From a virus, in IMG/VR virus record IMGVR_UViG_3300028129_000054, positions 1 through 26,490 of that record: DNA of 26,490 nucleotides; one strand, 5' to 3'. The notes beneath the pieces were generated by a model. That model saw only the letters and a program-made list of their open reading frames with translations. It was not told where the DNA came from and searched no databases. Position 1 is the first letter of the stretch, and each line of letters opens with the position of its first letter. Of this stretch, positions 1-9,057 are shown in pieces. Made by a program: the position numbers and the translations under genes.

Positions 1-1227
1 AAATGTACCAGTAAGTTTATAAATCTTTCCTTTGTATTTAAATACTATTCCTTCAGTTGGAAATATAGATTCTATTCCACCAATTCTATCAAGCCTTGCT
101 AGTTCAGCTTCTACCTTTCTTACTTGATCAGCCCCACCAGTCTTTTTAATTTTACTTCCTGCTGTTTGTATTTGAGCTCTTAGCCTTTGTGCTTCATCGG
201 ATGGATTAGCTGCTAAAAAGTCAGATGCGTTTTTAAGAATCACAGATCCTAATTCTAAGAACAGATCTTCAAAAGGTCTAATGTTTTCTTTATACTTTTT
301 AGCAACATCTTCTTTGTCAAACTTTTTAACTAGTGCAGCTTCTTTAGGTCCAATTTGTTTAGCAAGAGATCTCATATTTAAACTCTTCTTATCGCCGTAC
401 GCCCATCTCTTAAGTAAACCTTCTTTTACATCTTGAGATAATGTAGGGAATTGTTTATCAATTAATTCTCTCCACCACATTTCGTGATATTTAGCAACTT
501 CATCGCTATCAGTTAAACCGTATCTTTTTTCTAATGCGTTAACTTGGTTTATAAATCTTTTCTTGTTTGTGGTAAAATCCAAATCTTTTTGTAATTTAAT
601 AACTCTAGGTGGAATTATTTTAAAAGTTTTACCAATATCTGATTGTACCTTTTTAAGTATATCTGCAATTTCTTTTGCAGGTTTATTATTAGTGCCTGTA
701 ATGTTACCGTTACCATCAGTTTCCTTTATCCCGTGAAATTGAATTACATCTGTATCATAATGAATAACATTAGGGTTTTGTGAATAGATTAACTCCATGT
801 TCATAAAGTCTTTTCCATTCTTAAAATATTTTTCTTGGTCAGCTGGAGAAAGAGCCATTAGCAACCTAGCTAAATCCTGTGCAGCAAATTGAAAAGTATC
901 TTGTACTAATTTACTAGGATGCCCTTCAAATTTATTCTTAAATTCAGAAAGAGTCATTGGATTCTTTAACTCTGTTTTGTTTCTTGCAAATTTAACTTCA
1001 CCGTCTTGGATAGTAGCAAATGCATTTTGGCCATCGGTCTTTTCAGTAGCATCTTCTTCAAAGTTTAATTCACCTCTAAGACCAGCATCTATCATTGCCT
1101 TAAAATCACCAAAGGTTAAATCTTTATCGTCAAATGGATGGGCCATGTGACCAGCGGCACCTCCTTCAAAAAGAAATGGCTGGCTTTTGTCGGCCAGCCA
1201 TTGTTCAAACAATTTTATATGTTTCAT
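1..1227 (-). CDS. Ligase-superfamily nucleotidyltransferase with capsid-targeting-like N-terminus (C-terminus cut by window edge)
   Basis: The frame reads from an ATG at 1227 down to base 1 without a stop, giving 409 visible residues and no C-terminal end. Residues 62-68 read EKTDGQN, a good match to motif I (K-x-D-G) of the covalent nucleotidyltransferase superfamily (DNA and RNA ligases, capping enzymes), with K63 as presumed AMP-accepting lysine. Near the edge E392-GIVFK and K404-LTG fit motifs IV and V of the same superfamily. The N-terminus, MKHIKLFEQWLAD, resembles a T4 capsid-targeting peptide and is followed by a conserved-looking EGGAAGHMAHP segment. I recall related proteins with similar N-termini in marine T4-like phages, but could not check this. 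The enzyme may join or repair nucleic acid after packaging and ejection; the substrate is unknown. The next gene upstream stops 8 bases before this start. An internal Met28 preceded by AAGGAGGT is a less likely alternative start, because it would remove the peptide. Confidence 0.75.
   Translation of the reverse strand, partial: MKHIKLFEQWLADKSQPFLFEGGAAGHMAHPFDDKDLTFGDFKAMIDAGLRGELNFEEDATEKTDGQNAFATIQDGEVKFARNKTELKNPMTLSEFKNKFEGHPSKLVQDTFQFAAQDLARLLMALSPADQEKYFKNGKDFMNMELIYSQNPNVIHYDTDVIQFHGIKETDGNGNITGTNNKPAKEIADILKKVQSDIGKTFKIIPPRVIKLQKDLDFTTNKKRFINQVNALEKRYGLTDSDEVAKYHEMWWRELIDKQFPTLSQDVKEGLLKRWAYGDKKSLNMRSLAKQIGPKEAALVKKFDKEDVAKKYKENIRPFEDLFLELGSVILKNASDFLAANPSDEAQRLRAQIQTAGSKIKKTGGADQVRKVEAELARLDRIGGIESIFPTEGIVFKYKGKIYKLTGTF
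1175..1202 (-). terminator. Terminator-like hairpin inside the 5' end of the ligase-like gene
   Basis: On the minus strand AATGGCTGGC, an 8-base loop, and the perfect complement GCCAGCCATT form a 10-bp stem with six G-C pairs, followed at once by TCTTTTTG. This is the shape of an intrinsic terminator, and it is GC-rich against an AT-rich background. It falls in codons 9-18 of the ligase-like gene, just after the start codon. It could attenuate transcription into the ligase gene, end the upstream cargo transcript, or be a coding coincidence. Confidence 0.45.
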
Positions 1228-1235
1228 GTTTATGT

Positions 1236-1670
1236 TTATTTAAGGTTTCCTCTAGAATCAACCGCAGCGTATGCATAACTATTTTCTTGATTAATATCTT
1301 GTACTATAATTATTTTTACGTCTCCTAGCATTCCTTTATAAGCAGCTGTGTATGGTGATGGATCCATTCCTTTCCCTCTATCATTACCAAGAAGGTTGGA
1401 ACCTTTCATTTGAGGCGAAACAATATCATACAATTCATCATCATTAGCAGTACTTGAAAGATATCCCATATCAGCAATAGATTTTACTCCTAAATATTTT
1501 AAAGCTGGTTGGTAATTTTTATTAATATCCGCTACTGTCATTCCATCAAGATCAATATTACCTGTCATATCTTTGAGGGAGTCATAAGGACCGCCTTCAA
1601 CCCATGATGGTAATTCAGCTTCATTTAAGTTTTCATTTACAAATTCTGCAAACTTTTTTATATTACTCAT
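1236..1670 (-). CDS. Hypothetical protein with capsid-targeting-like N-terminus
   Basis: This 144-residue protein has no fold or family that I recognise. Its first 17 residues, MSNIKKFAEFVNENLNE, have the pattern basic, hydrophobic, aromatic, then V/L-N-E twice (residues 11-13 and 15-17). That resembles the T4 internal-protein targeting peptide followed by the prohead-protease site (I/L-x-E). The remainder, 18-144, is a small soluble mixed-composition domain with no membrane segment or cysteines. It lies between the acidic repeat protein (20-base gap) and the ligase-like gene (8-base gap), so it is probably cotranscribed with both. I infer a virion-internal protein. There is no clear Shine-Dalgarno; the leader is A-rich (AAAAACAAGAACTAAAGAT before the ATG). 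Confidence 0.75.
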   Translation of the reverse strand: MSNIKKFAEFVNENLNEAELPSWVEGGPYDSLKDMTGNIDLDGMTVADINKNYQPALKYLGVKSIADMGYLSSTANDDELYDIVSPQMKGSNLLGNDRGKGMDPSPYTAAYKGMLGDVKIIIVQDINQENSYAYAAVDSRGNLK

Positions 1671-1690: not shown

Positions 1691-3223
1691 TTATGATCCC
1701 ATAGTAGATTGTAAAGCTCCGACCATTGCGCCGTAATCTTCACCATACTTCTTAATTAATCCATCAGCAGTTTCAGTTGCTTTAGTTTCATCAAAATCAT
1801 CTCCGAATGCATCTTTTAGAATTGCCATTGCATATTCTTTAAATTCATCAGCAGAAGTAATATCCTTTTCATTAATCTTAGCTTCTCCAACTAATGCAGC
1901 ACCTTTTGCTTCAGGTTGAGCTTTTACTTTACCCATATCCATTATATCACCAGCAATACCTGCGGCAGATTCAGAACCGTCTCCCATTTTTGCAGGAACT
2001 TCAGTAGCATCCTTAAGATCATCAGCTTCACCTTTTACTTCAGTTGTAATCTTTTGGTCTTTAGTAACTAATTCTTCGCCTTTTGATTCAGGTTGTACTT
2101 TTACTTTACCCATATCCATTATATCACCAGCAATACCAGCAGCAGTTTCAGAACCGTCGCCTTTTTCTGCAGGAATAGCAAGGCCATCATCACCAGCTTC
2201 TTCATCAGCAATTTCATCACCGGTAACTTTAGTAATTACTTCACCTACCGCTTCTTCTACAGCTTCTTCTTCAGCCTCTATTTCTTCTTCTTCTTCTACT
2301 TCTTCTTCATCATACGATTCAGTTACAAAATTTGAAAAAGACATAATTCTTGATTCATCTTTCTTTTCTTCTTCTTCATCATATTCAGCATCTTTCTTTA
2401 ATGCATCAATTTCGGAGTCATCAGATTTTACAGCTCCTTTATAATGGTCAGCCTTTTCTTTGTCATCTTCAGAATCAACTTTCTTATCACCTTTGTCTTC
2501 TAACTCATCTCCTTCTTTTTCATCTTCCATTCCTTTATCTTCATCATCCTCAGAAATAGCATCGGCAGATGCAGCAACAACAGAATAGTCTTCTTTCTCT
2601 TCATCATCATCGTGATATTTGACATTCTTATTTATTGTAACTTCTTTTTCTTTAATGAAATCTTCGAAAGCCATAATTCTTTTTGTAGCAGCCGGAGTTT
2701 CCTCTTCTTCAGCAGCAACCTCAACACCTTCCTCATCTTCAACTTCATCAGCTTCAGCAGGAACCTCAGCGGTAATTTCAGGATCATCAGATACCTTATC
2801 ACCTGCCTTATCTTCTACATCTTTAGGTTCGCCTTTAGCTAATACTTCATCTTCAATATCTTTTGCAGAGTCTTCTTCAACTTCATCAGTTTCAGCAACT
2901 TCACCATCGGTACCAACTTTATCTTCATCTTTATCTTCTTCAGATTCTAATGATTTAGGTTCACCTTTCTTTTTAACTTCATCAGCTATATCTTCGGCTC
3001 TATCTTCTTCAAGTTCATCCTCAGAAATATCGTCCTTTGGTGAAACATCTTTTAATAAACCTTCTAATTTAGTTAAAAGATTTTTTTCTTTCTTTAATTC
3101 TTCGACACTTTCGTAACCCATCTTTTTAACTAGATCCATTACAGCATCATGATTTGGGTCAGCCGATTCATTAATTGAATCATCAGCTTTAGCCATCAGT
3201 GAAAACTTTTTAATTGGTTTCAT
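1691..3223 (-). CDS. Highly acidic repeat protein with internal capsid-targeting-like peptides (candidate prohead core or internal protein)
   Basis: The protein has 510 residues dominated by Glu and Asp with Lys, low complexity and no cysteine. Two degenerate 44-residue repeats begin at residues 69 and 113 (E-E-D-x-A-x-D-I-x-D-E-V, then K-G-E-P-K). Two strong repeats 59 residues apart (around 351-385 and 410-444) share GDGSE, AAGIAGDIMDMGKVK and QPE. Peptides resembling capsid-targeting sequences occur inside it: RIMAFEDFIKE at 182-192 and RIMSFSNFVTE at 292-302. The N-terminus, MKPIKKFSLMAKAD, is a weaker version. The C-terminal 60 residues look like a small helical domain (DEFKEYAMAILKDAFGDDFDET). 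In T4, acidic core proteins (gp22, gp67) are cut into peptides by the gp21 protease. A similar polyprotein or scaffold role is inferred here; no homologue is recognised. The start lacks a Shine-Dalgarno sequence. Confidence 0.8.
   Translation of the reverse strand: MKPIKKFSLMAKADDSINESADPNHDAVMDLVKKMGYESVEELKKEKNLLTKLEGLLKDVSPKDDISEDELEEDRAEDIADEVKKKGEPKSLESEEDKDEDKVGTDGEVAETDEVEEDSAKDIEDEVLAKGEPKDVEDKAGDKVSDDPEITAEVPAEADEVEDEEGVEVAAEEEETPAATKRIMAFEDFIKEKEVTINKNVKYHDDDEEKEDYSVVAASADAISEDDEDKGMEDEKEGDELEDKGDKKVDSEDDKEKADHYKGAVKSDDSEIDALKKDAEYDEEEEKKDESRIMSFSNFVTESYDEEEVEEEEEIEAEEEAVEEAVGEVITKVTGDEIADEEAGDDGLAIPAEKGDGSETAAGIAGDIMDMGKVKVQPESKGEELVTKDQKITTEVKGEADDLKDATEVPAKMGDGSESAAGIAGDIMDMGKVKAQPEAKGAALVGEAKINEKDITSADEFKEYAMAILKDAFGDDFDETKATETADGLIKKYGEDYGAMVGALQSTMGS
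1911..1996 (-). repeat. Direct repeat copy 2 (59-codon period) in the acidic protein gene
   Basis: The segment beginning tcaggttg on the plus strand recurs 177 bases away at 2088, with a long stretch of near-identity (ccatatccattatatcacc is exact in both). It encodes the second GDGSE / AAGIAGDIMDMGKVK / QPE unit. The 177-base offset is 59 codons, so the reading frame is kept. The high DNA identity suggests a recent duplication or ongoing exchange. Confidence 0.8.
2088..2173 (-). repeat. Direct repeat copy 1 (59-codon period) in the acidic protein gene
   Basis: Partner of the copy starting at 1911, offset by exactly 177 bases. It encodes the first GDGSE / AAGIAGDIMDMGKVK / QPE unit. Differences between the copies are scattered single bases (for example gcggcagat against gcagcagtt), with no insertion or deletion. 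Confidence 0.8.
2284..2312. repeat. TTC/GAA-rich microsatellite encoding a poly-Glu run
   Basis: A near-continuous run of ttc/tct triplets on the plus strand encodes the Glu-rich stretch just after the second internal targeting-like peptide (residues about 304-324). Triplet tracts of this kind can slip in length while keeping frame. Confidence 0.5.
2756..3019 (-). repeat. Two degenerate 44-codon tandem repeats in the acidic protein gene
   Basis: Residues 69-112 and 113-156 align as two units starting DELEEDRAEDIADEV and DEVEEDSAKDIEDEV, each followed by K-G-E-P-K at the same offset. The DNA copies (3019-2888 and 2887-2756) have diverged more than the 59-codon repeats nearer the C-terminus, suggesting an older duplication. 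Confidence 0.6.
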
Positions 3224-4789: not shown

Positions 4790-5238
4790 TAAAATTCCTT
4801 ATCATCTAAGTTTATTCTGTTTCTTATTGCAAATGCCATGTTATCTAAAGTCTTAATACATTCATAGTAATAATCTATATGTGATTGTAACATGTCAATC
4901 TGAGTTTTTAAAGAAGACAGATCGGCTTTTATAAATTGATGCTTTTCGCCATTAGTTAGTTTAACATCATAGTTAACTGAATACTCTCGATATTGGTTCT
5001 TATAATACCTGTCCCAAGTAGCATTCCTTTTATATATGGTGGTCTTAAAATCAGTTACTTTGTCTAATAAGATTTGCCGGTATGAAAGCATTCTTACTTG
5101 GCACTCTGCTAATTCATTCATGTTTTTTAGCTTAGAAACAAGATCTTTGATTTTTGCTTTCCAATCATTCCTATCAGAACCTAATCTAAGTTCTAATTGT
5201 TCATTAGCCTCTTTTATTTGTGTATCATCAAATGCCAT
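4789..5238 (-). CDS. uvsY: UvsY-like recombination mediator
   Basis: This 149-residue, helix-rich protein has no enzymatic motif. Its last ~50 residues have an Ala-Asp, then a long amphipathic helix, a Tyr/Cys-containing helix and a closing L-D-x-x-x-F-A-I-R-x-R segment. From memory this lines up with the C-terminal half of T4 UvsY (SADKDVLKVDTSLQYW, then ALDAIKSRGFAIKHI). T4 UvsY (137 residues) forms rings that load UvsX recombinase onto gp32-coated single-stranded DNA. Size, position immediately upstream of uvsW, and the presence of gp32 and primase in the same operon support the call. No UvsX gene is in this window. The start overlaps the preceding stop (TAATG) behind AAAGGAATATTTTA. Confidence 0.72.
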   Translation of the reverse strand: MAFDDTQIKEANEQLELRLGSDRNDWKAKIKDLVSKLKNMNELAECQVRMLSYRQILLDKVTDFKTTIYKRNATWDRYYKNQYREYSVNYDVKLTNGEKHQFIKADLSSLKTQIDMLQSHIDYYYECIKTLDNMAFAIRNRINLDDKEF

Positions 5239-5453
5239 TAAAATATTCCTTTATCGTTATTAATCTTTTTGTACTGCTTAATCTTTGGCTGAAACCTTTT
5301 CTTAGGTTGCGGTAATGTAAAGGTTGTTTTTACATCATCAGTTTTAATCTTTTTAAATTTAGTAAATAATTTAAGCTTCTTTTTAGAGATTGCTAAATCA
5401 TTATAAAAATCATCAAATTGTTCAGTCACAAAATTGTTGTAATTTTTTATCAT
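5238..5453 (-). CDS. Small basic protein with capsid-targeting-like N-terminus, inside the replication operon
   Basis: The 71-residue product is strongly basic after residue 23 (many Lys, PQPKKRFQPKIKQYKK) and has no recognised family. The first 11 residues, MIKNYNNFVTE, resemble the targeting-like peptides of the cargo proteins in this window. Its start overlaps the primase stop (ATGA) and its stop overlaps the uvsY start (TAATG), so it is translationally coupled on both sides and almost certainly a real gene. A nucleic-acid-binding or DNA-condensing role is possible from charge alone. It could instead be a replication accessory factor. It is too short for a T4 gp59-type helicase loader. Confidence 0.7.
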   Translation of the reverse strand: MIKNYNNFVTEQFDDFYNDLAISKKKLKLFTKFKKIKTDDVKTTFTLPQPKKRFQPKIKQYKKINNDKGIF

Positions 5454-8700: not shown

Positions 8701-9057
8701 TTAGAGTCTTTTACCTAATACTGCTCCTAATGCAGCACCGATTAATCGACTGGTTAATAAATCATACAAGGCTCCTTTTTGAATACCTAGTACTTTTGCA
8801 ATAGCCTTTCCTACAGATTTACCTAAAGCAAAACCGGTAAGACCACCTAAAACAGATCCTAATATACCTTCATTAATTATTTCCTCCATAATAACCTCTA
8901 AGTCTTTTCCGTTATTATGTTCCTCCATAATTCTATCTACTGCATTATCAATTGCAGTTTCTTGCTCTTCTGTTAAATCATAAGATTCGTTTAATAGATT
9001 TTGGATATCTATAGATTCATTATGGCTTTCAGTAAGGTAATCTTTAAATGTTTTCAT
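8701..9057 (-). CDS. Capsid-targeted pro-peptide-like protein with glycine-zipper C-terminus
   Basis: The first ten residues, MKTFKDYLTE, closely match the T4 internal-protein targeting peptide as I remember it (MKTYQEFIAE). Residues 1-63 are acidic and hold six I/L-x-E triplets, the T4 gp21 protease recognition pattern, ending at E10, E24, E30, E45, E58 and E63. Residues 64-118 contain no Glu and only one Asp (D99), with seven Lys/Arg. They form glycine-spaced hydrophobic helices (GILGSVLGGLTGFALGKSVG, then LIGAALGAVLG). The layout is that of an acidic, cleavable pro-region followed by a cationic, membrane-active or glycine-zipper peptide. I infer a head-packaged, ejected protein; a small membrane protein such as a holin is a possible alternative. 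Upstream, TATAAACA lies 13 bases before the ATG. Confidence 0.78.
   Translation of the reverse strand: MKTFKDYLTESHNESIDIQNLLNESYDLTEEQETAIDNAVDRIMEEHNNGKDLEVIMEEIINEGILGSVLGGLTGFALGKSVGKAIAKVLGIQKGALYDLLTSRLIGAALGAVLGKRL

Follow-up and report, generated by a model that had tools for sequence, protein, structure and literature searches.

In phage T4, the internal proteins IPI, IPII, IPIII and Alt are each made with a short N-terminal leader, which has an aromatic-x-x-aromatic core and is removed after a glutamate by the prohead protease, so that one leader serves one protein. According to the consulted portions of PMC9026906, the T4 protease gp21 cuts after L/I-x-E, and in the 10-residue leader of IPIII residues 4 and 7 act in targeting and residues 8 and 10 in processing; replacing the glutamate by aspartate blocks processing in T4 but leaves targeting intact. 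The T4 core proteins gp22, gp67 and gp68 are described in the consulted portions of PMC9026906 and PMC5694885 as acidic or helical substrates, from which gp21 makes several pieces. Giant phages of the phiKZ/SPN3US type also have multiple cut sites per chain and ejected head proteins, but their extra sites lie in long discarded propeptides, and no cassette chain is described in the parts of PMC5694885 and PMC10052503 consulted. Polyvalent proteins, likened to polyproteins by Iyer et al. 2017, join many domains in one transferred chain, and the consulted portions of that paper (PMC5512222) give them known enzymatic domains and often a metallopeptidase of their own. In the PMC literature on phage polyproteins with prohead protease or targeting (subscription papers and preprints were outside the scope), no cassette chain of the kind reported below was described.

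The gene P0001 comes from a marine phage and lies in a 26,490-bp viral record, the whole of which was analysed and is called the window. It is a candidate acidic head-targeted polyprotein gene, recognized from its ORF and composition at 1691..3223 on the minus strand (as are all features of the window given below), and encodes 510 aa with a pI of 4.10 (169 D+E against 65 K+R). Unlike the T4 internal proteins, its product has two complete tags inside the chain, and its relatives join many cassettes behind one leader. The tags are RIMAFEDFIKE (aa 182-192; 2648..2680), with a predicted cut after E192, and RIMSFSNFVTE (aa 292-302; 2318..2350), with a predicted cut after E302; an acidic stretch follows each of them, exactly as the initial annotation had placed them. 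The predicted N-terminal targeting propeptide MKPIKKFSLMAKADDSINE (aa 1-19; 3167..3223) would be cut after E19, and an INE at aa 450-452 (1868..1876) would be cut ahead of the conserved three-helix C-terminal module, called the N cassette (aa 453-510; 1694..1867), which is common to the distant family. E19, S20 and E452 are invariant in 22 aligned sequences, and in relatives the last site reads VNE/AEIKSADEF (here and below, a slash marks the predicted cut). Between these parts lie a 59-codon repeat with one copy closer to the N terminus (2066..2226) and one closer to the C terminus (1889..2049), and a 44-codon repeat with the units AKDIEDEVLAKGEP (2813..2887), homologous to cassette B of the distant family, and AEDIADEVKKKGEP (2945..3019).

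In the predicted model of P0001, 365 of 510 residues have pLDDT<50, and the model is disordered except for the C-terminal module, which reaches about 88 pLDDT, and short helices (178-200 and 296-305) that lie over both tags. P0001 matched no family of PHROGs (E up to 0.001) or of Pfam (above its cut-off), which includes the known core families, and tblastn of P0001 and megablast of window positions 1-24,900 against INPHARED gave no matches. Foldseek searches of PDB with the models of P0001 and of a 1029-aa orthologue returned nothing at E below 0.8, which says little since both models are of low confidence overall. Thus none of the P0001 pieces had a fold or domain match in PHROGs, Pfam or, by Foldseek, PDB.

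The layout aromatic-x-x-aromatic-[ILV]-x-E is that of the T4 IPIII leader, and the F-x-x-F-[IV]-x-E of the internal peptides fits it. The leader of P0001 itself, MKPIKKFSLMAKADDSINE/S, has the cut motif and a T4 IPI-like length without the second aromatic residue of the full FxxF form; its orthologues begin with MxKLxxFxxF. As a control, T4 IPI starts with MKTFKEFTSTTTPVSTITE/A, 19 residues on a plan close to the P0001 leader. The strict tag regular expression misses T4 IPI, but it finds the region of the T4 gp23 cut site, FGSFLTE. Tags of this form are common at the starts of proteins in these phages. In G015, a related 234-kb record, 27 of 297 called proteins have the motif within the first 20 residues, typically as MKHIKLFEQFVNE; the same holds for 3 of 20 proteins in the window, and with a slightly looser pattern 7 of 211 proteins of G030, a 181,663-bp record of the window clade, carry an N-terminal tag. 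Internal motif matches are rarer than N-terminal ones in G015 (14 in 66,142 residues, where shuffles gave 8.8), and the protease-scaffold fusion accounts for 5 of these 14. These data support the view that the internal peptides of P0001 are full copies of the N-terminal head-targeting and cleavage tag of these phages.

Several other tagged proteins were observed. In the window, the neighbouring 144-aa protein (1236..1670), downstream of P0001 and outside it, starts with the tag MSNIKKFAEFVNE, and small tagged genes lie at 5238-5453 (MIKNYNNFVTE) and 8701-9057 (MKTFKDYLTE). The next downstream neighbour (1..1227), which runs off the window and whose homologue adjoins the G015 polyprotein, has a tag-like start, MKHIKLFEQWL, and a KTDG motif, in full EKTDGQN; this gene had no Pfam or PHROGs match. 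We take KxDG to be motif I of nucleotidyltransferases and ligases. The G015 protein at G015:C1:84671-85237 (L091:4671-5237, minus strand) carries the tag MKRIKLFEEFLNE/K and matches anti-CBASS Acb1 (PF23474; 31.2 bits, cut-off 27), which suggests a counter-defence enzyme pre-loaded in the head, and the tagged start of G021:C1:96068-96625 is similar to it. Besides, a cytidylyltransferase-like domain (PF01467; GRFQPFTLGH) with cut-like flanking sites occurs at L001 14924-16294, G015:C1:155773-157644 and G030:C1:180966-181663; the first of these also has a tag-like start, an internal MKNLKSLTSF...SLNE/G and cassette c. The Acb1-like and cytidylyltransferase-like tagged proteins of G015, the latter from the same region, are encoded by separate genes and would fit injected counter-defence or metabolic cargo.

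To what extent the two internal tags exceed chance was judged with composition shuffles of residues 21-510 of P0001. Of 20,000 shuffles, 295 contained the motif [FY]xx[FYW][ILV]xE once and not one contained it twice. The strict cut sites are not enriched in P0001 (3 against a shuffle mean of 1.43 and a maximum of 5). We collected 33 ORFs as close orthologues, of which 9 cut at a contig end were dropped, and all 24 full-length ones have exactly two internal tags. A second, wider set that partly overlaps the first held 55 ORFs, and after 16 cut at a contig end were dropped, exactly two internal tags were again found in each of the 39 complete ones. The initial annotation had named as counter-evidence homologues that lose the internal peptides while keeping the rest; the opposite was seen. 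Column conservation is 96% for tag 1, whose 11-mer ranks 2 of 500, and 88% for tag 2, whose 11-mer ranks 187 of 500, many other stretches being better conserved; still, both F, the V and the E of tag 2 are fixed in all 20 variants listed. For tag 1, the nonsynonymous difference is 0.008 against a gene mean of 0.228, while the synonymous difference (0.248 against 0.244 for the gene) is ordinary, so selection acts on the peptide.

The tandem repeats behave differently from the tags. The 59-codon pair has a spacing of 177 nt and a longest exact run of 40 nt, and the near identity claimed for it holds for the core only (57/60 in the best 60-nt window) but not for the whole pair (123/161 nt); the 44-codon pair, at a spacing of 132 nt, is 72% identical. 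A tagged 160-aa protein of G015 (G015:C1:211437-211919) begins with MDRAEEIEADVVAKGTP, which resembles the 44-codon unit. The number of units does change among relatives, as had been proposed, with 1-2 copies of a GDGSE repeat and 0-4 copies of a GGNKGDKSKT unit. Since the tags are constant at two and the repeat copies vary, the tags are fixed while the repeat number drifts. We counted indels that span 35 residues or more between well-aligned flanks and asked for a site within 6 residues of the ends, leaving out ORFs that were truncated at an end or did not exceed 200 aa. In the window clade, 1 of 61 indels had a site at both ends (0.1 at random) and 16 of 61 at one end at least (9.5 at random). 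The repeats of this clade are not bounded by cut sites, and the tandem repeats are thus a process separate from the tags; their interpretation as cassettes was rejected on this ground. A notable exception is L035, in which an extra cassette of about 61 aa lies exactly between KVNE and ESVNE/A, at the predicted cut position ahead of the C-terminal module; this insert had no match in INPHARED.

In the distant relatives the arrangement is a chain of cassettes. Scanning with the window protein yielded 69 loci, and scanning with an alignment of the long orthologues 80 of 99; the family members were then collected by means of a C-terminal-module profile. These proteins range from 209 to 1029 aa and share the N-terminal module, an AEDIEDE unit (the 44-codon repeat of the window) and the C-terminal module, and the gene order is kept as UvsW, polyprotein gene, tagged gene or genes, and KTDG gene. 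Between the shared modules lie exchangeable cassettes delimited by ES..[ILV][NTD]E/[AGS]. We defined 30 reference cassettes by hand from the compared proteins, and their coverage of 88-99% is partly by construction because they were defined from the same proteins. Among 15 proteins, cassette N occurs in 15, O in 14, K in 10, J in 8 and P in 3. The order of cassettes varies (G stands ahead of J in L056 and behind it in L068), and the minimal members (L167, L170-L172; 209 aa) consist of the N-terminal module and two C-terminal modules.

The sites are concentrated in these chains. The 1029-aa G015 protein has 14 [ILV][NTDAGS]E[AGS] sites against a shuffle mean of 1.96 and a maximum of 7 in 500 shuffles; the runner-up among the 297 G015 proteins is the protease-scaffold fusion with 8, and the 1029-aa protein holds 9 of the 13 ES-type delimiters in all 297. 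In the distant clade, 50 of 106 indels had a site at both ends (2.8 at random, at most 11 in 300) and 90 of 106 at one end at least (26.3 at random), counts that are not of independent events because the events overlap. In the AlphaFold2 model of the 1029-aa protein, 13 of the 14 sites lie in segments of pLDDT<50, which make up 41% of the chain (binomial p 7e-5), in a model of low confidence overall with a mean pLDDT of 54. This orthologue had no match in INPHARED by tblastn and no Pfam match above the cut-off, and the family was not found in GTDB genome contigs. The general anatomy of a viral polyprotein, with predicted cleavage, is strong in the distant clade and weaker in the window protein. 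A candidate relation to polyvalent proteins was rejected, as Pfam finds no enzymatic domain or zincin-like metallopeptidase in P0001 or the 1029-aa orthologue; in the P0001 family, unlike in polyvalent proteins, what separates the domains are short cut sites like those of a prohead protease.

Cassettes also turn up in other genes. Cassettes F, Y and K are present in a second tagged protein of 982 aa adjoining the first (L066 12224-15172), C and G in L069 11766-13412, and c in L001 14924-16294, which belongs to the window clade. In another multi-site protein, G030 76376-77470, cassette E is matched at 47% over 89 aa, and the cassette after it shares 83% identity with one found in L163 and L173, two of the distant polyproteins, while the shared C-terminal module of G030 and the reference is only 65% identical. 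Our interpretation is that cassettes have moved from gene to gene and from phage to phage. More tagged, multi-site, cassette-like proteins that share cassettes with the main family were observed at G015:C1:153007-155748 and at G030:C1:74001-78051 and 92487-95074. What's more, the 579-aa protein of G021:C1:93154-94893 begins with a tag and carries another complete one, LKHVKLFEQFVTE, at residue 371, an apparent fusion of two tagged genes, and G015 150650-151426 carries an internal KKFKSFEQFINE. For P0001, the search for a gene encoding the segment after tag 1 on its own found none, and since such a counterpart is lacking, the serial fusion suggested initially is plausible but unproven for the window gene.

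The genome context agrees with a T4-like phage. Upstream of P0001, PHROGs and Pfam give UvsW helicase, UvsY-like, primase and gp32-like matches, and farther off a tail-tube match, indicating that the contig is from such a phage; the gp23 and gp21 models found no head genes in the window record, which is a fragment. A gp21-type protease is present in the window-clade record G030, unlike in the 26-kb window record. G030 has a head cluster at about 16-23 kb (portal, a 573-aa protease-scaffold fusion and a 642-aa gp23), and its P0001 orthologue of 577 aa, which adjoins UvsW and the KTDG gene, lies at 174-176 kb; in G015, the head genes are at 116-120 kb and the polyprotein gene at 160-163 kb. Over the records searched, the PF03420 protease was found in 8 of 21 and 1 of 12 and gp23 in 6 of 21 and 1 of 12, most records without the protease being fragments. 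The gp23 of G015 is closest in INPHARED to that of the 462-kb metagenomic phage LR756500 (51.7%), with Prevotella Lak phages at about 38%, and the family profile matched neither LR756500 nor Lak-A1. PMC12619734 describes jumbo phages of aquatic origin that stand near Lak and T4 and for which Bacteroidota are the predicted hosts; the word "polyprotein" is absent from that paper, and its phages and this lineage may belong to the same broad group.

The prohead protease-scaffold fusion (G030:C1:18182-19903; G015:C1:118398-120320; G021:C1:2704-4716) has a scaffold half built of 14-residue repeats, each ending in [FY]xx[FYH][ILV]xE, the form of the targeting tag. In G030, this half contains the tag motif seven times (shuffle mean 0.11, maximum 2 in 2000) at spacings that are multiples of seven, and it occurs five times in G015 and three times in G021, mostly in the same register. 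We hypothesize that the targeting tag copies the coiled-coil repeat of the scaffold. The parallel with gp22 and gp67 drawn in the initial annotation does not hold, because in these genomes the scaffold is a gene of its own, and so is the one intervening between portal and protease. In contrast to the T4 core proteins, scaffold and protease are fused here, and in the distant family the pieces resemble separate folded domains, each of which is gained or lost as a whole. Orthology of P0001 to gp22, gp67 or gp68 was rejected by the gene position outside the head cluster in G030 and G015 and by the separate scaffold.

Different explanations can be considered for these observations. We regard as probable that P0001 encodes a polyprotein that is targeted to the head and processed there by the prohead protease, and that within its family the window gene is a derived acidic member which has kept two full tags inside. 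This reading is partly supported for P0001 itself, where full copies of the tag lie inside the chain and are kept in relatives, and where orthologues are cassette chains, but the repeats of the window clade lack bounding cut sites; for the family it is well supported by anatomy. Further points against it are the strict cut-site count of P0001, which is not enriched, the modest conservation of the tag 2 11-mer, the leader short of the full FxxF form, and the missing fold or domain match for any piece. The rival that deserves most attention, though we find it rather unlikely, is that P0001 is a core-organising protein, similar to an accessory core protein, whose three tag-like elements are multivalent docks cross-linking the scaffold, its acidic pieces being waste cleared before DNA entry, with no cargo. 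The tag motif at every 7n residues in the scaffold half would suit this explanation, since docking could rely on the tag imitating the scaffold repeat, and so would the acidic, disordered pieces of the window protein, which are like processed T4 core peptides. However, orthologues have varied and apparently folded cassettes in place of the acidic stretches, which waste would not need, and in G015 the place between portal and protease is already taken by a small tagged gene distinct from this one.

Two further explanations concern the tags themselves, and both appear highly improbable to us. One is that ribosomes start at the ATGs of the RIM tags (MAFEDFIKE, MSFSNFVTE), so that nested genes rather than cleavage of a long chain would account for them. 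The M of RIM is indeed ATG in all contexts printed but one, starts of the form MxFxxF are tags here (MNFDQFLNE in G015), and the annotation of T4 gene 21 includes an internal start. Internal starts were nevertheless rejected, since the M codon of tag 2 is CTG in L026, the synonymous sites upstream are unconstrained (0.282 and 0.205 against 0.244), the R-I ahead of M is conserved as protein, and the internal contexts are unlike the A-rich gene starts of the window. The other is that an acidic, disordered protein gathers E-rich matches by chance or low complexity and the tags have no role. It is true that one third of P0001 is D+E and that the strict cut-site count is within the shuffle range, but the shuffles never produced two tags, tag 1 is strictly conserved at the protein level, and the number of tags stays at two in every complete relative while the adjoining repeats vary.

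Returning to the head-targeted polyprotein, the N-terminal leader and the two internal tag copies would draw the precursor into a T4-like prohead core, where a gp21-type prohead protease would cut after glutamate at about four places (E19, E192, E302 and E452). The predicted products are the leader, three acidic and mostly disordered pieces (20-192, 193-302 and 303-452) and a small folded helical one (453-510). For P0001, packaging, cleavage and the function of the pieces are what we infer. P0001 would thus represent, in the window clade, a wider family of cassette polyproteins targeted to the head, whose domains of 60-90 residues, separated by the same cut sites, are gained, lost and swapped between phages. 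One leader probably loads many small proteins in a fixed ratio, which would be freed at head maturation and ejected with the DNA. We put forward a more specific form tentatively, as somewhat more apt to fail than to hold: in an aquatic, Lak-related, T4-like lineage, one leader would carry up to about a dozen and a half cassettes of 30-130 residues, freed by the protease, injected as a combinatorial set of early effectors and swapped between several such genes across phages, with the tag copying the scaffold heptad, so that a single motif would serve both docking and cutting.

In conclusion, if the polyprotein reading is right, tailed phages load their heads by the polyprotein strategy that RNA viruses are known for, the prohead protease serving as the processor and the cassettes as interchangeable parts. 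This would account for the ability of large phages to stock numerous proteins for injection. It would also give a reading rule (leader, cassettes, E/A, E/G or E/S sites) for finding unknown injected effectors in metagenomes, and a natural design for loading several proteins into phage heads. Besides, the link between the tag and the scaffold repeat makes the docking of T4 leaders, an old question, testable.
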